Virus record (IMG/VR): IMGVR_UViG_3300048033_000553
Location: 1 to 37,485 of that record
Length of the DNA stretch: 37,485 nucleotides
From: a virus
Strand: one strand, 5' to 3'
This document shows, piece by piece, positions 1 through 37,485 of this stretch. The notes beneath the pieces were generated by a model that was not told the DNA's origin, searched no databases, and was given only the letters and a program-made list of their open reading frames with translations. Within the stretch, counting starts at the first letter, position 1; each line of letters opens with the position of its first letter. Position numbers and translations under genes: made by a program.

Positions 1-1
1 G

Positions 2-301
2 CAAGCGAGCCTATACATTGGCCGTGGATTTCTACAGCTCACCGGGAGAAACAATTATCGCTCGTTTGCATCTGATATGGGTGTGCCGGAGGTTATGACT
101 GACCCAGACTTGGTGGCGGACGATTACGCTTTTGAGACTGCTTTGTGGTTTTTCGAAAAGAATGACTTGTTTAAGATTGCCGATGAGGGCGTGACGGATG
201 ACGCAATCAAGCGCATAACGCGCCGCGTGAATGGCGGCTATCACGGGCTGGATGATCGAAGCCAACAGAGCAAGAAGATCCACACTTGGCTAATGGCCTA
301 G
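2..301 (+). CDS. GH19-type endolysin, C-terminal part (5' cut by window edge)
   Basis: Open from base 2 in the frame set by the complete copy at 36450-37070. The first residues read QASLYIGRGFLQLTGRNNY, the conserved GRG-QLTGRxNY segment of family 19 chitinase/lysozyme-like endolysins. The upstream catalytic-Glu part lies outside the window on this side. Compared with the full copy only two residues differ in the overlap (D for G after the EKN segment, Q for N near the C-terminus), while most nucleotide changes are synonymous. It is the same gene seen across the contig join, or a truncated duplicate. It hydrolyses peptidoglycan at lysis. Confidence 0.85.
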   Translation, partial: QASLYIGRGFLQLTGRNNYRSFASDMGVPEVMTDPDLVADDYAFETALWFFEKNDLFKIADEGVTDDAIKRITRRVNGGYHGLDDRSQQSKKIHTWLMA

Positions 302-319
302 TCTAGCTAGGTTAGCTAA

Positions 320-703
320 GTGCGGGTCCAAGATCAAAAGGCCAGCGCGGCAGTAGGCAGGGCGGGCGAGCATTTAGCACTCGCCCGGCTTTCGCTTGCT
401 GGCTATCTCTGCACCCTGTGCCAAATCAGAGACCACGATGCGTATATACAGACGGATACACGCACGCTCACATTGCAAGTAAAAAGCGCAAGCAAAACGC
501 ATGGGGTAGGGCAAAGGTACAAATTCTACACAGCAAAGAAGAGCGGGCAAAGGTCAGACGTTTATGCCTTTGTTGCGGTGGATCTGGATGCTGTAGTTTT
601 TCGCCGGGGCGACGAAATCTCCAAGACAACAACATATGTATATGAGTCGGAATTTCTAAACGAAAGCCATTCGATGCAAAAAACTCTGGGCAGCTTTAAA
701 TAG
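320..703 (+). CDS. PD-(D/E)XK endonuclease-like protein (left copy)
   Basis: 127 aa from a GTG start, 18 bases after the endolysin stop, with only a weak ribosome site. The N-terminus holds a helix with GRAGEHLALARL (candidate acidic residue E17), then RDHDAYIQ (D about residue 41) and LQVKSA (Q-x-K about residues 53-55). That order matches the small PD-(D/E)XK nuclease-like families (PDDEXK_5 type). The family links to DNA cleavage or Holliday-junction-like functions, but its role in a phage lysis operon is not known. The copy at 37089 differs at five residues, three of them (TDT versus MYE) in the hairpin between the putative catalytic D and K. Nuclease activity is inferred. Confidence 0.7.
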   Translation: MRVQDQKASAAVGRAGEHLALARLSLAGYLCTLCQIRDHDAYIQTDTRTLTLQVKSASKTHGVGQRYKFYTAKKSGQRSDVYAFVAVDLDAVVFRRGDEISKTTTYVYESEFLNESHSMQKTLGSFK

Positions 704-818
704 TGTCTTGCGGGTCGGTGTGGGTTTGACTACAAAGTCTGAGTGGGTGGCTCAACCGTAACCGTTTATTGGTTATCGCGTTACCGAATGTGCCAACATC
801 ACGCCACCCACACGACTA
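704..818. terminator. Structured convergent gap, possible bidirectional terminator
   Basis: This gap separates the + strand lysis operon from the - strand methyltransferase operon. It holds a perfect 9-bp inverted repeat, GTGGGTGGC at 743-751 and GCCACCCAC at 803-811. An inner imperfect stem has arms CGTAACC (757-763) and GGTTATC. A wider pair lies at 714-725 and 806-816. No T-tract follows on either strand, so a classic intrinsic terminator is not shown. Its placement between two gene ends makes transcription termination the simplest reading. Confidence 0.35.
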
Positions 819-929
819 CTAAAATATAATCCCCACCAACGTCATCAGGCCAGCGCCAGCAACGAAGCCAAAAATAGCTCCAATCAGACCGGCTGCGTTT
901 ATCATGCGCTCCATTTCTTTGTCACTCAT
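819..929 (-). CDS. 36-aa single-pass membrane protein
   Basis: Starts at an ATG at 929, inside the last codons of the methyltransferase gene (8-base overlap), and ends with TAG at 819. A GGAGAG ribosome site lies 5 bases upstream, inside the methyltransferase reading frame, so translation is probably coupled. The protein has a short charged N-terminus (MSDKEMERM) and one Gly/Ala/Ile-rich hydrophobic segment from about residue 11 to 36. It would be a tiny inner-membrane protein at the end of the accessory operon. No family recognised; holin-like or antiholin-like roles are possible but unsupported. Confidence 0.6.
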   Translation of the reverse strand: MSDKEMERMINAAGLIGAIFGFVAGAGLMTLVGIIF

Positions 930-2028
930 CTAAACTCTCCACCATTTGTATTCTTTCGCCAATCCAGCGCATCACTGGTACGGCCATTGAGTTGCCCATT
1001 GCTTTGTATCGAGGACCGTCCGGGCAGTCTTTAGCGGCCTTGTTGCGCCACGGTATCTGCGTGTAGTTATCAGGGAAGCCTTGCAGGCGCTCGCATTCTG
1101 TTGGGGTTAGGCGTCGTACTTGTGCGCCTTGTGAAATAGCATTTCTTGGCGCACCTTGTGGTCCTCTTATTAACGGCCCCATAAGCTCTTTCGCTCCGTT
1201 CAAGTCGTGGTCAATCCCAAATGCCACCGCTGGCGTCTTACTCTTATCCAGCGTTGGCGTGACTTCAGTTGACACGCTGTCGCCTTGGTTGGCGCTGTTT
1301 TGTGCGCCGAAGGCTATTGGCAATGTTTCTGTTGTCGGATCGTATTCGCTTCCCGTGCGAGTTGTAAGGCACTGAGCCACAACAGCCTCCGCTTCTACTC
1401 GCTCGTTGCCTGTGCGACTGAATGGAGCGCCTTGTGTAACTGTGGGGGCAGCTTCTTGCCCCGCTTCTCTGCGCGGTGCAGGATGCCCTGACATGCTTTC
1501 GCGCTCAAAAAGAACCGCTGCGGCACGTCGCCAGTCTCCAAGGTATCCGACAACGAACACACGGCGGCGTCTCTGGGCCACTCCGAAGTATTGAGCGTCA
1601 AGCACTCGGTAGGCGAACCCATACCCGAGCTGGCCCAGCGCCCCGAGGAAGGTTCCAAAATCCCGTCCTCGTTGGCTAGACAGGACGCCGGGGACGTTCT
1701 CCCAAACCAACCACTTGGGCTGATATTGTGCAGCAATGGCAAGATAGGTGAGCATGAGATTTCCCCTTGGGTCATCAAGTCCCTTGCGAAGTCCTGCGAC
1801 TGAGAAACTTTGGCAGGGGGTTCCTCCGACCAGAAGGTCAATTGATCTGTCAATGGGCCACTCCTTAAATTTCGTCATGTCGCCCAAGTTGGGGACATCT
1901 GGGTAATGATGCGCCAGCACGGCGCTCGGGAACTTTTCTATTTCGCTGAACCATTGCGGCTCCCAGCCAAGAGGATGCCATGCTGCGGTGGCCGCTTCAA
2001 CGCCAGAGCAAACTGAACCATATTTCAT
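922..2028 (-). CDS. C5-cytosine-specific DNA methyltransferase
   Basis: 368 aa with the standard C5 methyltransferase motifs in order: SAM-binding GSVCSGVEAA near residues 4-13 (motif I), GGTPCQSFS with catalytic Cys72 (IV), ENVPG 110-114 (VI), QRRRRVFVVG 152-161 (VIII), RRLTPTECERLQGFP (IX) and YKAMGNSMAVPV (X). The target recognition region lies between VIII and IX, about residues 170-310. It would methylate cytosine in the phage genome, most likely to block host restriction or mimic host methylation. Start ATG overlaps the stop of the HTH gene (ATGA). No partner restriction enzyme is seen. The target sequence cannot be read from the protein by eye. Confidence 0.95.
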   Translation of the reverse strand: MKYGSVCSGVEAATAAWHPLGWEPQWFSEIEKFPSAVLAHHYPDVPNLGDMTKFKEWPIDRSIDLLVGGTPCQSFSVAGLRKGLDDPRGNLMLTYLAIAAQYQPKWLVWENVPGVLSSQRGRDFGTFLGALGQLGYGFAYRVLDAQYFGVAQRRRRVFVVGYLGDWRRAAAVLFERESMSGHPAPRREAGQEAAPTVTQGAPFSRTGNERVEAEAVVAQCLTTRTGSEYDPTTETLPIAFGAQNSANQGDSVSTEVTPTLDKSKTPAVAFGIDHDLNGAKELMGPLIRGPQGAPRNAISQGAQVRRLTPTECERLQGFPDNYTQIPWRNKAAKDCPDGPRYKAMGNSMAVPVMRWIGERIQMVESLDE

Positions 2029-11679: not shown

Positions 11680-12720
11680 CTAGTAGTTTTGGCAGAACAT
11701 TAGTCCATTTGAGAAACAAAGCTGTGACATAGCTACGCCGCCGGGGACAAACGTATCTTCAAGTGAGACAAACTGATACGAAGAGTTGAGGCTAAAGAGG
11801 GAAAGCTTGTTGTAAGTGTTATCAGCAAGGCCCGCAACTATATATGCCCCGTCGTTTGTCACGTCTAATCCTCGACCGTCTAAGCCATCATTCCCTTGAG
11901 TGTTGGTCATATACTCGACATCAATCACTGACGAAGAACTAGGACTAACATTAAAGGTTGAGAGGCTGCCTCTACCCGCCCCAATTCCTCCAACTCTAGC
12001 CACCACGTCATTAGTAATATATGTTATTTGATTGCCGCTCTGGCAAGAAATACTGTTAACTGATCCCCAGCTATCCGCTGACGTATCATATGTAAACAAA
12101 GATGATGATCCGCTAACGGTGAGCTGATTTCCATTAGGGCTATAGGCAAGAGAGTAAGCTCCACCGATAATTTTAGTCCCTAAATTTGAGATAGAGGTGC
12201 CATTGAAGGATAGCATATAACACCTATTTGACCAACCAGATGCTATCGTTAACTTGTCACCGTCTGGATGCCATTTTATATCAGCCACTCCTGTGGAAGT
12301 TACGCTAAAGCTATCCACTAAGCTAGCGGTGTCAGAGCCGTTCCATGAGAAAATTTGAAGCCTATTAGTCCCGCTTCCTCCAGTTGTCCCAATAGCAAAA
12401 TAATCGTCATCAGGAGACCATGCGCAAGCATACGGTCCACCATTGAGAGTAAACGTCTCCGCCAGAGAGCCAATAACGCCGTTGCTGTAAGTGTAAATGC
12501 GACCTTCAGTATTGCTCTGATAGTCTCTAGTGAGAATGAAATTCCCGCCACGATTAATGGCTGCGAATTGATCGGTATCCGCTTGAGTGTCAGTGACGGA
12601 ACCTAGTGTACCGGGCGTGTTGTGGTCTAAAACTCTTACATTTGTGTTTAGTTGGCCCAAAGCAAGATACGATTGCTCACCGCCAGCACTCGCCATCATT
12701 AATTTCTTGAAGTTGCTCAT
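11680..12720 (-). CDS. Beta-propeller (WD40-like) tail protein
   Basis: 346 aa built from repeats of about 40-50 residues with the pattern hydrophobic strand, turn, strand: YACAWSPDDDYFAIGTTGG, DIKWHPDGDKLTIASG, SLAYSPNGNQLTVSGSS, RGLDVTNDGAYIVAGL. This is the SPDG-type repeat of WD40/lactonase-like propellers, and about six to seven blades are countable. Start ATG overlaps the stop of the preceding fibre gene. Located between fibre and hub genes, it is probably a distal tail protein or receptor-binding ring. Codons and sequence look AT-richer than the neighbours, which may indicate separate acquisition. Confidence 0.65.
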   Translation of the reverse strand: MSNFKKLMMASAGGEQSYLALGQLNTNVRVLDHNTPGTLGSVTDTQADTDQFAAINRGGNFILTRDYQSNTEGRIYTYSNGVIGSLAETFTLNGGPYACAWSPDDDYFAIGTTGGSGTNRLQIFSWNGSDTASLVDSFSVTSTGVADIKWHPDGDKLTIASGWSNRCYMLSFNGTSISNLGTKIIGGAYSLAYSPNGNQLTVSGSSSLFTYDTSADSWGSVNSISCQSGNQITYITNDVVARVGGIGAGRGSLSTFNVSPSSSSVIDVEYMTNTQGNDGLDGRGLDVTNDGAYIVAGLADNTYNKLSLFSLNSSYQFVSLEDTFVPGGVAMSQLCFSNGLMFCQNY

Positions 12721-13775
12721 TAGCTCAAATCCTCACCCGCTAAGAAGCCATACCAAGTTGTGCCACCATCATGCGTGTAAAACACAAACTGATCTACTGC
12801 GCTTGCTGTACTTGTCAGCGAAGGTGCTGACCCACCAGACCAATCCACTGCGGCGGGCCATGTTACAGTGTAGCCACTAGAACTTGCATCCTGCACGATC
12901 TTTAGAATAAAGCCCGAAGCCTTGCCGGACGCCGCAGGGTTGCTGAAAGTAAATGTAGTGTTCTCCGTCAGCGTGTGACTAAACACTGTGCCATCACGCG
13001 AGTTAACCGTTGTCGCGTTGCTCGACGATGTGACCGCCGTGAACTCCTCGGTAATCCCGTTGTCAAAAGTAACAACGCCATTTGCATCCGCAGTGACAAC
13101 CTTGCTGGCCTCAGAGGTGCCAAGCGTTGTGATGTCATTATAGTTTAATTCTGCGGCTGTGGCTGTCACACCATCAAGGATGTTCAACTCGCCAGTGGAA
13201 GCGGTTAAGCCGTCAAGGATGTTCAACTCGCCAGTGGAAGCGGTTAAGCCGTCGAGAATGTTCAGCTCGGCTGTAGTGGAAGTCACGCCGTCGAGGATGT
13301 TTAGCTCTGCGGCTGTGGCGGTAATACCCAGAGCTGTTAGAGTTGTTGCGTCTATTATTGCTTTGACGTTTGACGCTGCGCCAGTGCCATCGCAGTATAT
13401 TACGCCCGTTGATCCGTTAGCGACCGTGACATTAGCGCCTGTGCCTTGCGTAAATATGGCATCATGTCCGCTGTTATTGTCTATCAAGTAAAACTTAGAA
13501 GCGTCATTTGGCGTCACTGTAATTGTGCAATCCTCTGTCGCACCAGATAGCACCAGAACCTTATACATTCCATCGCTGAGAGCGTCACCAGTTGACCCGT
13601 TTGCAGTATTAAGAGTGTGTGCAGCCGCAGAAGACGATAAGTCAATCGTGCCAACCCCAGATGCGGCACGATCTAGGATGTCAAAGTTTCGGTTCGTGAT
13701 CTGACCCCATGTGTCAGTCTTCTCTCCGTCAGCGATTTTTTCAACCGCGTTATTGAGTGTCCAAGTGCTTGCCAT
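12720..13775 (-). CDS. Tail fibre protein with 13-residue ILDG repeats
   Basis: 351 aa. The N-terminal part (TWTLNNAVEKIADGEKTDTWGQITNRNFDILDRA) is the type found in marine phage fibre proteins. Beta-rich sequence follows, then about four tandem copies of a 13-residue unit [AG]ELNILDG[LV]T with variable ending (about residues 155-215). The last 110 residues (NTTFTFS, TWPAAVDWSGGSAP, FYTHDGGTTWYG) form a domain shared with the C-terminus of the neighbouring 841-aa protein. Probably a distal fibre or capsid/tail decoration that contacts the cell. Confidence 0.75.
   Translation of the reverse strand: MASTWTLNNAVEKIADGEKTDTWGQITNRNFDILDRAASGVGTIDLSSSAAAHTLNTANGSTGDALSDGMYKVLVLSGATEDCTITVTPNDASKFYLIDNNSGHDAIFTQGTGANVTVANGSTGVIYCDGTGAASNVKAIIDATTLTALGITATAAELNILDGVTSTTAELNILDGLTASTGELNILDGLTASTGELNILDGVTATAAELNYNDITTLGTSEASKVVTADANGVVTFDNGITEEFTAVTSSSNATTVNSRDGTVFSHTLTENTTFTFSNPAASGKASGFILKIVQDASSSGYTVTWPAAVDWSGGSAPSLTSTASAVDQFVFYTHDGGTTWYGFLAGEDLS
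13140..13310 (-). repeat. 39-bp tandem repeat encoding ILDG units
   Basis: Two exact adjacent 39-base copies lie at 13173-13211 and 13212-13250, flanked by two diverged copies. Each codes for one 13-residue unit of the fibre protein. The exact pair indicates recent expansion or gene conversion; the copy number may change by slippage or recombination and so alter fibre length. Confidence 0.85.
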
Positions 13776-25229: not shown

Positions 25230-25827
25230 ATCATGCGAATACGACCAGAGTGTCATTCTAAAAAACATAATGGAGCTGTGCGGCGTCTATCAATTTGACG
25301 CCGACATCTCATTCGGCAACGGTGCATTTTACAAAAACATACCGCAGCCGCGCTTAAAGTTTGACATAGATCCGCAATTAGACGGAGTAACTGAGGCTTG
25401 CAGTACAAATCTGCCGATTGATGACGCGTCGCTGCAATCTCTTGTGTTCGACCCTCCCTTCATGACTTACGTTCGATCTGGCAGGAGCGGGAACGGCAGT
25501 ATGATTATGGCCAAACGGTTTGGGGGCTACTGGAGGTATGACGAGCTCGAAGATCATTACCGCGGCACGCTAGAAGAGAGCGCGCGTGTGCTAAGGAGAA
25601 AGGGGGTCATGATCTTCAAGTGCCAAGACATCGTTCACAATCACAAACTGCACCCCACGCATATTTTTATAACCGAGTGGATGAAGCCGTGGTTTCGCCT
25701 CAAAGACTTATACGTTTTGGCCGCTAAAAACCGAATGCCCATACCACAAAAAGCCGGGGAAAAGAAAAAAGTGCAACGTCACGCACGAATTCATCACTCG
25801 TACTTCATGGTGCTGGAGCGCTCCTAA
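25222..25827 (+). CDS. DPPF-motif DNA methyltransferase-like protein (N6-adenine/N4-cytosine type)
   Basis: 201 aa. LVFDPPFMTY near residues 74-83 is the DPP(Y/F) catalytic motif IV of amino-methyltransferases. FDIDPQLDGV (about 47-56) may mark part of the SAM pocket, and the segment LEESARVLRRKGVMIFKCQDI (about 115-135) is the motif V/VI-like strand-helix that follows motif IV. HHSYFMVLERS closes the fold. It lacks a clear N-terminal FxGxG motif, so motif order may be permuted (beta type) or diverged. Adenine-N6 or cytosine-N4 methylation of phage DNA is inferred. It converges on terL with a 4-base overlap. Confidence 0.7.
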   Translation: MIRSCEYDQSVILKNIMELCGVYQFDADISFGNGAFYKNIPQPRLKFDIDPQLDGVTEACSTNLPIDDASLQSLVFDPPFMTYVRSGRSGNGSMIMAKRFGGYWRYDELEDHYRGTLEESARVLRRKGVMIFKCQDIVHNHKLHPTHIFITEWMKPWFRLKDLYVLAAKNRMPIPQKAGEKKKVQRHARIHHSYFMVLERS

Positions 25828-27245
25828 ACCACCCCTCTGATACCACGCTTCAGCGGCTTGCCCCACGAGCCGCTGGCCGACGTACCATATGCCATCGTCG
25901 TGTGGTCGTTGGCCAAAGCTAAGCACAGCGCGTCGGCGCGGTCGGGAGATCGCACGCCGCGCTTTTTCATGCTGTCCTTGCTCTCAACCTGGATCTTGCC
26001 GGACGACGTAAACATGTAACGCGGCGCCACTAGCTCCGAATACAGCGCGTCATCCTTGGGCAGCGACACATCCATATTCTCGAGCCACGCCTTGCACTTG
26101 AACCACAGCTCCGCGCGCAGGTTCAAATACGTCTGCTTCGCCATCGCGCGCTCAGACACGTTCAAGCCGCGCGCCGGCAAGCCGAGCTCACGCAAACGAT
26201 CCAACACCCCGGCGCCAAACCCGTTGCTGTCGACGATGATCTCGATCGGCCGCTTAGACGGGGGCGCCGCATCGTATTCCGCCTTCACAGCGCCGGAGAG
26301 CTGCATCAGGTCCAAGTTGCGCCACACAGTCAGCGGGTGCACCACCGGCCCCTGGCGCTTGCACAGGACGCTGCTGTCATCCCCCTGACGCGCCACGTCC
26401 AAGCCCCAGACGGACGCCGTATCCTCGTGAACCTTCACCTCGTTGTTAAACGCGTGCTCCACCAACGCCACCGGGATCACCGTGTCCTCCTCAGACGGAG
26501 GAAAGTTGCCCAGGACGCGCACATGGTACGCGGGGCTGTCCTCGCCGTACCGGCGCTGCATGTCGGTGACGAAATCCTCGGACACGCGCGGGCTGTCGAC
26601 GCACGAGACGTGCATCGTGTACCAGTCATCCCGTAAACGCGTGTGGGTGTCGTAAAAAAAGCCAGTGTTACGCGTCGGGTTGCCCGTGAGCACCGTCGTG
26701 GCGTTGTGGCCCGACATCGAGCCCGAGGCAGCCTCAAAAACGGCCTCCGGGATACCGCTGGCCTCATCCGCCAGCAGGAGCACGTTCTCAGAGTGAACAC
26801 CGGCCAAGGCTTCCGGCTGCTCCGACCTCGACGTCCTGCACGAAATAAACGTGCTCTCAGGCGCGCTTTTCAGCTCAATCCGATCAGACTTGATCTCCAG
26901 CAAATTGTTGAACGGGGGCTTCAGGCGCTTGGCCACGTTTTTCATCTCCGCGAAGCACGCGTCAAACAGCTGCGCGGACGTGGGCGCCGTGACCACCGTC
27001 TTGCTCGGATACCGCATCAAGACGTGCCAGATGGCCGCCATGGCGACGCCCGTGGACTTGCCGACGCCGTGGCCAGACCTGACGGATACGCGGCGCACCG
27101 CTGGGGCGGCGATCGCGTCCAACAGCTCAACCTGCCACTCGTCGGGCTCGATGCCAATGACCTCCTGTGAGAAGCGCACCGGATCATCGCGGTAGCGGCG
27201 CATCAACTTCAGAAACGGGTTATCTTGGGGGCTGGGGGCGTTCAT
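25824..27245 (-). CDS. terL: Terminase large subunit
   Basis: 473 aa with both domains complete. ATPase: RSGHGVGKST (Walker A, 56-65), VLLLADEASG (Walker B with D160/E161) and TVLTGNP (coupling motif about 184-190). Nuclease: WGLDVARQGDD (D283), IEIIVDSNG (D339) and SPDRADAL (D435/D438), the RNase H-like metal site. It pumps DNA into the procapsid through the portal and cuts concatemers. AAGGAG lies 9 bases before the ATG. Last gene of the replication/packaging operon. The sequence alone does not tell cos from headful packaging. Confidence 0.97.
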   Translation of the reverse strand: MNAPSPQDNPFLKLMRRYRDDPVRFSQEVIGIEPDEWQVELLDAIAAPAVRRVSVRSGHGVGKSTGVAMAAIWHVLMRYPSKTVVTAPTSAQLFDACFAEMKNVAKRLKPPFNNLLEIKSDRIELKSAPESTFISCRTSRSEQPEALAGVHSENVLLLADEASGIPEAVFEAASGSMSGHNATTVLTGNPTRNTGFFYDTHTRLRDDWYTMHVSCVDSPRVSEDFVTDMQRRYGEDSPAYHVRVLGNFPPSEEDTVIPVALVEHAFNNEVKVHEDTASVWGLDVARQGDDSSVLCKRQGPVVHPLTVWRNLDLMQLSGAVKAEYDAAPPSKRPIEIIVDSNGFGAGVLDRLRELGLPARGLNVSERAMAKQTYLNLRAELWFKCKAWLENMDVSLPKDDALYSELVAPRYMFTSSGKIQVESKDSMKKRGVRSPDRADALCLALANDHTTMAYGTSASGSWGKPLKRGIRGVV

Positions 27246-34581: not shown

Positions 34582-35052
34582 ATGGACCCGGTCACCTGCA
34601 TAGCCGCGGCGTCAGCAGCCTATAAAGGTATCAAGAAGGCGGTGGATTTTGGGAAAAGTGTCCACGAAATGTCTGGCACTATATCGCAATTTGCCAAGGC
34701 CGCGTCCGATCTGGATTTCCTGGAAAAGAAGTCGCAGAAGCCGCCGCTGTATAAAATGTTCAGCGACAATGAGGCTAACGCCCTAGAGATATGGTCGCAA
34801 AAGCAGAAATTGGCTGAATATCGAGAGGATCTCCGCAGCCATATTTCGTGGCATTACGGGCCCAGCGCCTGGAAGGCCATAGTAAAAATTGAGGGCGAGC
34901 AACGCAAACGTCAGCAGGAGCTGGTCTATAAGAAGCAGGAGTTTATTGACAAGTGCATAAGTTTGGCAGTCGGCACAGCGCTTTTGCTTGCTGGATTTGG
35001 TGCATTGATCGTCATTCTGTATTTCTTGGGCCTCAAGCATGGGAAGTTTTAA
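34582..35052 (+). CDS. 156-aa protein with C-terminal membrane helix
   Basis: Helical, charged body (AAYKGIKKAVDFGKSVHEM, DFLEKKSQKPPLYKMFSDNEANALEIWSQKQKLAEYREDLRSHI, then EGEQRKRQQELVYKKQEFIDK) and one hydrophobic helix at about 126-149 (LAVGTALLLAGFGALIVILYFLG). N-terminus is also mildly hydrophobic. Similar proteins are found next to holin/lysin genes of marine podoviruses as I recall. Tail-anchored topology fits an accessory lysis role; unproven. Confidence 0.6.
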   Translation: MDPVTCIAAASAAYKGIKKAVDFGKSVHEMSGTISQFAKAASDLDFLEKKSQKPPLYKMFSDNEANALEIWSQKQKLAEYREDLRSHISWHYGPSAWKAIVKIEGEQRKRQQELVYKKQEFIDKCISLAVGTALLLAGFGALIVILYFLGLKHGKF

Positions 35053-35217
35053 ATGTATTTATTGCTTTGGTTCCAGCTAACAGCGCAGGTCATCCACTTT
35101 GAGGTGGGCCAGTATGGCAGTGAGAAAGAGTGCTTTGATGCGCTGCGCAAGGCGTCTGTTCTGGTAACTAAAAACAATGAATATCTGCAATGTTTCAAAA
35201 TTGGAGTTAGCCAATGA
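35053..35217 (+). CDS. 54-aa small protein with Cys pair (paralogue of the 62-aa gene)
   Basis: ATG at 35053 right after the previous stop, ending in TGA that overlaps the next ATG (ATGA). Sequence opens MYLLLWFQLTAQVIHFEVG, a short hydrophobic start, then KECFDALRKASVLVTKNN and LQCFKIG. The pattern E-C-(x)n-C-F-K-I/V-G is shared with the gene at 35854, so the two are likely old duplicates. The cysteines may form a disulphide in the periplasm. No strong ribosome site; probably coupled. Confidence 0.6.
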   Translation: MYLLLWFQLTAQVIHFEVGQYGSEKECFDALRKASVLVTKNNEYLQCFKIGVSQ

Positions 35218-35513
35218 CTGAGTATGACCTAAACGGTAACGGCAAGATTGACCTAGATGAGCGCGAGCTTATGCTCGAGGATCGACGCCTCCGCATGGAA
35301 GACGCCGACCACAAGCGCGATGCGCAGCTACGCATGACGTGGTTCGCGCTTTTTGGATTGCTGATCTACCCGTTTGGGATAGTTGCGGCTGACATCTGGG
35401 GCTATGACACAACAGGGCAGCTTTTAGCTACAATCGCCCCCACATATTTCATAGCCATATCTGGCCTTGTCGCCGCGTTCTTTGGATTTAGCGCAATGGG
35501 GGCTAAGAAATGA
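35214..35513 (+). CDS. EF-hand-bearing two-helix membrane protein (holin candidate)
   Basis: 99 aa. Residues 5-16 read DLNGNGKIDLDE, a full EF-hand loop with Ca ligands at positions 1, 3, 5, 9 and 12 (D, N, N, D, E). A charged helix follows (RELMLEDRRLRMEDADHKRDAQLRM), then two hydrophobic segments at about 42-60 (WFALFGLLIYPFGIVAADI) and 73-94 (IAPTYFIAISGLVAAFFGF). Similar EF-hand proteins occur in lysis regions of marine phages by recollection. A holin or pore regulator that senses calcium is a hypothesis. Confidence 0.65.
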   Translation: MTEYDLNGNGKIDLDERELMLEDRRLRMEDADHKRDAQLRMTWFALFGLLIYPFGIVAADIWGYDTTGQLLATIAPTYFIAISGLVAAFFGFSAMGAKK

Positions 35514-35854
35514 TCGGCCAGATAATCGGATCACTCGGCGGGCTTGCTGCCAGCTACATTGACGGCAAGACTGCCGTGAAGAAAGCGGAAGCTGAGACCA
35601 AGATGAAAATCGCCACTGGCGAAATCAGCTGGGAACAAGCTGCTATCGAGGCCAGCAACAATTCGTGGAAAGATGAGGCGTGGACCGTGGCATTCATAGC
35701 CATCGTTCTTGGCAGCTTCATACCGGGCATACAGCCTTACATGGCGCAGGGTTTTGCAAATCTTGATGCTGCGCCTCAGTGGTTCCAATGGGCAATGTAT
35801 GCCAGCATCGCGGCGAGCTTTGGCATACGCACAGTGAAGGGGCTGAAGAGGTAA
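35510..35854 (+). CDS. Holin-like membrane protein (GTA_holin_3TM type)
   Basis: 114 aa. N-terminus MIGQIIGSLGGLAASYIDG, an amphipathic/hydrophobic helix, then a charged part (TAVKKAEAETKMKIATGEISWEQAAIEAS). NSWKDEAWTVAFIAIVLGSFIPG has the W-x-D-E-x-hydrophobic pattern of 3TM phage holins, and AMYASIAASFGIRTVKGLKR ends the last helix with positive charge. Good candidate for the main holin that lets the endolysin out. Overlaps neighbours at both ends (ATGA and TAATG). Confidence 0.7.
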   Translation: MIGQIIGSLGGLAASYIDGKTAVKKAEAETKMKIATGEISWEQAAIEASNNSWKDEAWTVAFIAIVLGSFIPGIQPYMAQGFANLDAAPQWFQWAMYASIAASFGIRTVKGLKR

Positions 35855-36042
35855 TGTTTCTTGCGGCCCTCCTCGTATGTTCTACGCTGCAAGCTCAGTC
35901 CTGTGCAGTGGTCGCAAACTTAAACGATATATGGTATACCGAGGCCGAGTGCCAAGCAGACGCAATGAACTTTGCTTTGAAGTTAGTTGACAAAGGTTTT
36001 TCGGTCAGGCCGTATTGCTTCAAAGTTGGAGAAAACACATGA
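35854..36042 (+). CDS. 62-aa secreted Cys protein (paralogue of the 54-aa gene)
   Basis: Start ATG 35854 overlaps the previous stop (TAATG) and has GAAGAGG upstream; a longer frame from 35779 runs inside the holin gene and is rejected. FLAALLVCSTLQAQS looks like a signal peptide with cleavage after AQS or ATL-type site. The mature part has TEAECQADAMNFALKLVDKG and PYCFKVGENT, sharing the E-C ... C-F-K-V-G pattern with the 54-aa gene. It would be a small periplasmic disulphide protein acting at lysis or superinfection; function unknown. Confidence 0.65.
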   Translation: MFLAALLVCSTLQAQSCAVVANLNDIWYTEAECQADAMNFALKLVDKGFSVRPYCFKVGENT

Positions 36043-36299
36043 GTAGAGCTACACCAGCGAAGGGCAAAGCCCGCGTTAAAGTTACCTCAAGCGGACGTAA
36101 AGTCAGCTACGGTCAAGCGGGCAAAGCAAAAGGCGGTGGCCCACGGGTCAAGCCCGGCACCAAGAAGGGCGATGCGTATTGCGCACGATCCGCGGCGCAG
36201 AAGAAGAAGTTTCCGAAGGCGGCGAAAGATCCTAACAGCCCGCTAAATCTTTCACGCAAGCGCTGGAAATGCAGCGGCACTAAATCGAAGAGGACTTAA
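36039..36299 (+). CDS. 86-aa basic protein (DUF6321-like)
   Basis: ATG 36039 overlaps the previous stop and has GGAG upstream. SRATPAKGKARVKVTSSGRKVSYGQAG, GGGPRVKPGTKKGDAYCARSA, then DPNSPLNLSRKRWKCSG. This pattern is common in tailed phages and fits the DUF6321 family as I know it. Strongly basic with two spaced Cys. DNA or RNA binding is plausible; role unknown. Found near lysis genes in many phages. Confidence 0.75.
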   Translation: MSRATPAKGKARVKVTSSGRKVSYGQAGKAKGGGPRVKPGTKKGDAYCARSAAQKKKFPKAAKDPNSPLNLSRKRWKCSGTKSKRT

Positions 36300-36303
36300 T
36301 GAA

Positions 36304-36453
36304 ATGGGACTGTATTCAAACATTGCTAAAAAGCGTGCGCGCATCAAGGCCGGAAGCGGAGAGAAAATGCGCAAGCCCGGCACTAAAGGAGCGCCAACGG
36401 CCAGTGCATTTAAAGCGGCTGCCAAGACAGCAAAGAAAAAGGTTAAGAAATGA
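36304..36453 (+). CDS. 49-aa basic phage protein
   Basis: Starts MGLYSNIAKKRARIKAGSGEKMRKPG, then TKGAPTASAFKAAAKTAKKKVKK, ending in a TGA that overlaps the endolysin start (ATGA). The RIKAGSGEKMRKPGTKGAP pattern is very common in tailed phages next to the DUF6321-like gene. Highly basic. The alternative frame from ATG 36299 (MKWDCIQT) is rejected. Role unknown. Confidence 0.75.
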   Translation: MGLYSNIAKKRARIKAGSGEKMRKPGTKGAPTASAFKAAAKTAKKKVKK

Positions 36454-37070
36454 GCAAGGCAATGGCTAGCCTCCAGACTAAAATCGGGTCAAGTCCCGAT
36501 GGCGAGTTTGGGCCGAATACAGCGCGAGCAATCGCAAAGTATTTTAACCTATCCCCGGCGCGCGGCGCACACTTGATGGGGCAGGCATCACACGAAAGCG
36601 GTGGCTTCAAGCGCACCCGTGAAAGCCTGTATTATAGCTCACCAGAGCGCATACAGGCTGTGTGGCCCTCGCGCTTCCCAACCGTTGAAGATGCAGAGCC
36701 ATACGCCAAGAACCCAAACGGGCTTGCTGGCAAGGTTTACGCTGGCCGCATGGGTAACGAGAATGAGGCGCAAGCGAGCCTATACATTGGCCGTGGATTT
36801 CTACAGCTCACCGGGCGAAACAATTATCGCTCGTTTGCATCTGATATGGGTGTGCCGGAGGTTATGACTGACCCAGACTTGGTGGCAGACGATTACGCCT
36901 TTGAGACTGCGCTGTGGTTTTTTGAGAAGAATGGCTTGTTTAAGATTGCCGATGAGGGCGTAACGGATGACGCAATCAAGCGCATAACGCGTCGCGTGAA
37001 TGGCGGCTATCACGGGCTGGATGATAGAAGCAACCAGAGCAAGAAAATCCACACTTGGCTCATGGCCTAG
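36450..37070 (+). CDS. GH19 (chitinase-like) endolysin
   Basis: 206 aa. N-terminal residues 1-35 (LQTKIGSSPDGEFGPNTARAIAKYF) resemble a minimal peptidoglycan-binding repeat. The catalytic domain follows: LMGQASHESGGFKRTRE (candidate catalytic Glu48), YSSPERIQAVWPSRFP, then YIGRGFLQLTGRNNY (113-127) and VNGGYHGLDDR with the final Gly-Gly motif. This matches phage GH19 lysozymes. No signal peptide, so it needs the holin. From base 36770 on it is repeated at the left end of the window. Confidence 0.9.
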   Translation: MSKAMASLQTKIGSSPDGEFGPNTARAIAKYFNLSPARGAHLMGQASHESGGFKRTRESLYYSSPERIQAVWPSRFPTVEDAEPYAKNPNGLAGKVYAGRMGNENEAQASLYIGRGFLQLTGRNNYRSFASDMGVPEVMTDPDLVADDYAFETALWFFEKNGLFKIADEGVTDDAIKRITRRVNGGYHGLDDRSNQSKKIHTWLMA

Positions 37071-37485
37071 TCTAGCTAAGTTAGCTAAGTGCGGGTCCAA
37101 GATCAGAAGGCCAGCGCGGCAGTAGGCAGGGCGGGCGAGCATTTAGCACTCGCCCGGCTTTCGCTTGCTGGCTATCTCTGCACCCTATGTCAAATCAGAG
37201 ACCACGATGCGTATATACAAATGTATGAACGCACTCTCACGTTGCAGGTAAAGAGCGCCAGCAAGACGCATGGGGTGGGCAGAAGGTACAAATTCTACAC
37301 AGCTAAAAAGAGTGGGCCTCGGTCAGATGTTTACGCCTTTGTTGCGGTGGATCTTGATGCTGTAGTCTTCCGCCGGGGCGACGAAATCTCCAAGACAACA
37401 ACATATGTATATGAGTCGGAATTTCTAAACGAAAGCCATTCGATGCAAAAAACTCTGGGCAGCTTTAAATAGTGTCTTGCGGGTC
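36770..37485. repeat. Right copy of imperfect terminal direct repeat
   Basis: Matches bases 1-716 without gaps at about 94%. Substitutions end at 37370; the last 115 bases are exact. This copy includes the codons of a complete endolysin and PD-(D/E)XK gene and is the more informative one. See the left copy for interpretation. Confidence 0.9.
37089..37472 (+). CDS. PD-(D/E)XK endonuclease-like protein (right copy)
   Basis: 127 aa from GTG, 18 bases after the endolysin. Same motif order as the left copy (GRAGEHLA, RDHDAYIQ, LQVKSA). Differences from it: MYE instead of TDT between the presumed catalytic D and K, R for Q (VGRRY) and P for Q (SGPRS). The many silent changes show selection to keep the protein. 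It closes the lysis operon and may process DNA late in infection; nuclease activity is inferred. Confidence 0.7.
   Translation: MRVQDQKASAAVGRAGEHLALARLSLAGYLCTLCQIRDHDAYIQMYERTLTLQVKSASKTHGVGRRYKFYTAKKSGPRSDVYAFVAVDLDAVVFRRGDEISKTTTYVYESEFLNESHSMQKTLGSFK

Follow-up and report, generated by a model that had tools for sequence, protein, structure and literature searches.

The unequal repeats at the two ends of this phage contig are, with a probability of roughly 93%, one gene pair from two coexisting phage strains that the assembler joined round a circular map. The window, meaning the whole stretch of DNA that was analyzed, is the virus record IMGVR_UViG_3300048033_000553 (37,485 bases), which is classed as linear, i.e., without end repeats. 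The 716-base repeat is an ordinary assembly artefact: its two alleles exist in nature, but the genome itself has neither the repeat nor a duplicated gene. Strain joining is supported because a contig from a different assembly has a single copy at the junction, the states of the left-end copy are natural alleles, and relatives have diverged end overlaps elsewhere. The same three lines of evidence favor the first of the two alternatives in the first-pass annotation, which had proposed either two coexisting strains in one contig or a tandemly duplicated endolysin/PDDEXK pair.

Differences between the two copies

Copy A (1..716, + strand) comprises the 3′ part of the endolysin gene and an entire small PDDEXK-like ORF (320..703, +) and is assigned to the second strain. 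Copy B (36770..37485, +) is the equivalent segment of the main strain. The intact endolysin gene, which is of the glycoside hydrolase 19 type and encodes 206 aa, lies at 36450..37070 (+), and the small ORF of copy B (127 aa) lies at 37089..37472 (+). The comparison of 1–716 with 36770–37485 gave one gapless diagonal with 671 of 716 bases identical and 45 substitutions (6.3%), in agreement with the earlier description of a 716-base end repeat with about 45 mostly silent substitutions and no indels. The substitutions were distributed among the codon phases as 32/8/5. Synonymous changes accounted for 33 of the 40 differing codons (12 of 14 in the endolysin and 21 of 26 in the PDDEXK-like ORF), and one further difference was intergenic. 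The NG86 estimates of dN and dS were 0.013 and 0.214 for the endolysin part and 0.024 and 0.302 for the small ORF. That most differences are silent would reflect purifying selection, with each strain having its own intact gene.

The differences were not spread evenly. The first 46 bases were free of them, as were the last 115 (602..716, +), whose right-end counterpart (37371..37485, +) is flush with the contig end. The 115 bases had been described as following the repeat; they are indeed identical, but they lie inside the 716. Identity along the segment was 99% (1–117), 92% (118–301), 98% (320–450), 83% (451–601), and 100% (602–716). Of the 45 differences, 26 fell in the patch at 451..601 (+), the allelic patch of copy A, and the loop changes discussed below are among them. 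When the differences were placed at random over bases 1–601 20,000 times, a 151-base stretch reached that count in 0.015% of the trials. The identity of A and B in 602–716 does not come from constraint, because this stretch is unconserved in the family (median identity to B of 66%, best 96.5%).

The endolysin matched PF00182 with 34.7 bits (cut-off 25.5), which places it in the glycoside hydrolase 19 family, and it also matched phrog_181 (endolysin). The small ORF is PD-(D/E)XK-like by conserved residues only: E17, D40, and Q53-V-K55 were invariant and presumably correspond to the PD-(D/E)XK motif. A profile search gave PDDEXK_5 for 1 of 48 members, a weak match with an E-value of 0.035, and searches against Pfam at loose thresholds otherwise returned names at chance level. 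There was no match to the small ORF among PDB sequences or phage records, and an AlphaFold2 model built from 48 relatives was unusable (mean pLDDT 35.6).

Next to the repeat, a gene for a cytosine-5 DNA methyltransferase (922–2028, minus strand) is a presence/absence gene: a methyltransferase longer than 300 aa was found in 22 of 81 homologous loci, while 42 of the 81 were without the gene and had its flanks (window about 923 and 2032) within 40 bp of each other. For the terminase large subunit (25824–27245, minus strand), no relative of at least 60% identity was found among 50,697 phage records. Its best match there was an uncultured phage from Manatee Spring (57%), and the best isolate among the matches listed was Sinorhizobium phage phiM5 (52%).

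Allele states and copy number in related phages

The 45 sites were examined by aligning copies A and B with 80 homologous loci, after L094, which is cut, had been dropped. One or more relatives had the A base at 42 sites and the B base at 43, and the A base was the commoner of the two at 21. Copy A is thus a natural allele. An alternative is that only one circular genome was present and that copy A carries errors of sequencing or assembly. The three A-states that were absent from the 80 relatives are compatible with such errors, whereas the 42 natural states and the 33 silent codon changes speak against them, and this explanation has a nearly negligible probability.

The small protein differed at five amino acids, three of which were at residues 45–47 (TDT in A, MYE in B), so the earlier observation that the changes cluster in one loop of the PDDEXK protein was correct. 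At the three loop codons, relatives were mostly A-like. Among 88 sequences, with A, B, and L001 included, TDTR occurred in 12 and MYER in 10. The loop cluster is an existing allelic polymorphism that is also found in other phages and is not special to the A/B pair. Positive selection in the loop was considered and rejected, as both TDTR and MYER are present in relatives.

Relatives differed in which allele they resembled. Over 451–601, 23 of 26 sites carried the A base in locus L017, and 21 of 26 carried the B base in L013. Up to base 310, L017 was more B-like than A-like (8 sites versus 5, with 3 neither). These states form a mosaic pattern, and the allelic patch has probably been exchanged by recombination. 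The pattern suggests that strains of this phage group exchange alleles at their lysis locus.

A genome of strain A was sought in viral_contigs with two A-specific patterns, and no contig matched, which counts against the strain-joining reading. A shorter loop pattern matched six contigs, which were relatives 86–91% identical to A and not strain A itself. Copy B aside, the closest sequence to A among the relatives compared had 91% identity. Related strains do co-occur: sample 3300048011 contains L001, L044, and L094, and at this locus L044 is about 20% and L094 about 16% different from copy B.

The copy number was assessed in 81 distinct loci (L002–L080, L091, and L094), with L001 and re-fetched duplicates omitted. 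Each had a single match to the 1036-base endolysin/ORF query, and no second adjacent copy was found, although many loci are fragments and a copy past their ends is possible. Eight whole records were also searched. Seven of them had one match, and G008 had a second, partial match at its other end, which is another end overlap.

The second alternative in the first-pass annotation, in which the phage really carries the 716 bases twice in tandem and the copies have drifted apart, is not borne out by these counts. It would fit with the small ORF being complete in both copies and with the changes being mostly silent in both. Against it stand the single copies in all 81 loci and the state of the endolysin fragment in copy A, which is headless and has no reason to be conserved, yet 12 of its 14 changed codons are silent. 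The other assembly of the same genome, which has one copy at the junction, and the end overlaps of relatives in unrelated genes also count against a duplication, which is therefore very unlikely. Lower still is the probability that minority molecules carry a partly duplicated endolysin/PDDEXK-like segment formed by inter-strain recombination and so keep two alleles of the small protein per genome.

The junction and end overlaps in related contigs

The reading of two strains joined in one contig is supported by the other assembly. Locus L001, the first among 80 loci from the endolysin search, was identical to copy B plus both flanks. Its whole contig, L099 (IMG/VR 3300048011_000199, 15,995 bp), comes from a different assembly, that of sample 3300048011. 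It consists of window 34596–37485, with one intact copy (B), followed directly by 717 onward, with a single mismatch up to about 13.3 kb. Copy B is thus contiguous with 717 there and leads straight into it, which gives a closed map of 36,769 bp. The odd one is copy A, despite its attachment to 717 in the window, and it was joined to 717 by assembly. A 45-base pattern over the 716/717 junction was found in the L099 contig only, and as its bases are common to A and B, it cannot separate them.

L099 and the window differed by 14 mismatches in total, one isolated and 13 in a patch by the right end of L099, and the final identical run was 126 bases, not 127. The patch corresponds to window about 13320–13695 (L099 15494–15869), in a gene (12720–13775) that adjoins the tail fibre gene, and represents a second site of strain variation at a contig end.

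End-to-end comparisons, with 2.5 to 5 kb per end, covered the window and 17 of the 18 available relatives with contigs of at least 34 kb (all but G025). Of the 18 near-full-length contigs compared, with the window counted, six had diverged end overlaps, five had exact overlaps, and seven had none. Besides the window (716 bp, 94% identity), diverged overlaps of 177–3313 bp occurred in 5 of the 17 relatives, and their positions on the window were obtained by translated comparison: G003 (3313 bp, 93%, at 28–31 kb), G007 (1253 bp, 80%, at 9.0–9.9 kb), G008 (177 bp, 97%, one end not flush, at 36.4–36.6 kb), G020 (213 bp, 94%, at 13.2–13.7 kb), and G022 (1205 bp, 97%, at 29.9–31.1 kb). They map to the endolysin, primase/helicase, and tail regions. 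Contigs thus end at many places, and such overlaps are not specific to the endolysin. Exact overlaps were found in G006 (73 bp), G016 (123 bp), G017 (99 bp), G009 (127 bp), and G018 (59 bp). No end overlap was found in the compared 2.5–5 kb per end of G002, G004, G005, G010, G019, G021, and G023.

In G022, 38 of the 40 overlap differences fell in a single codon phase, and this silent pattern matches that of the window, as expected of strains. The phase signal was weaker in the gapped alignments of G003 and G007, where the commonest phase held 82 of 192 and 90 of 209 differences, respectively. The overlap of G007 terminates in an exact 127-base run flush with the contig end. G003 (IMGVR_UViG_3300046167_000283) is a 40,853-bp relative that probably has a true map of about 37.5 kb, since its two ends share 3.3 kb with 93% identity.

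These overlaps also bear on the possibility that the phage chromosome is linear and that the two copies are its genuine direct terminal repeats, since diverged. Both copies are flush with the contig ends, as such repeats would be. Terminal repeats regenerate from one another during replication and packaging and should be identical, whereas 45 differences were found here. Moreover, the overlaps of relatives vary in gene and length, and L099 passes unbroken through the supposed end. The probability of this explanation is close to nil.

Proposed assembly path and comparison with known cases

With the two ends taken as alleles of two strains, the genome would form one circular assembly map of about 36,769 bp in which the endolysin/PDDEXK-like pair occurs once. 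At least two related strains, differing in patches at this locus, would have been present in the sample. The assembler may have started in strain A, within the endolysin gene, then circled the map on main-strain sequence, and stopped after re-reading the locus in strain B, probably at the node that joins both branches. The 716-base repeat would then represent two alleles of a single locus, and 602–716 is likely the shared node where two graph branches meet. The 115-base shared end would fit k=115, and the counterpart in G007 is 127; among the literature listed, nothing useful turned up on 115 as an assembler setting. The k may have been about 115. This rule does not account for the left end, whose 46 identical bases are fewer than k.

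The case serves mainly as a caution, because near-complete circular viral contigs can have diverged overlapping ends that escape exact-repeat tests. The assembled genome is then overlong, one gene copy is broken, and a duplication is falsely suggested; such ends were seen in 5 of the 17 relatives examined.

The behavior of assemblers at such places has been described. A simulation study reports that viral assembly is hampered by strain heterogeneity. According to the CheckV authors (PMC8116208), many end repeats are of k-mer length because circular templates seem to be cut by assemblers at random positions. The window resembles those cases in that a contig with a circular map is broken at an arbitrary place and repeated at both ends, and five relatives overlap exactly. 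It differs in that its ends overlap by 716 bases that are 6.3% different, which an exact-repeat test would miss. The COBRA authors (PMC10914622) report that de Bruijn assemblers stop a contig where several paths are possible, which leaves end sequences of the largest k. Like the strain-variation breaks considered by those authors, the window ends where two paths appear to meet, with 115 shared bases. In their case, however, separate contigs share an end, while here both branches are the ends of one contig.
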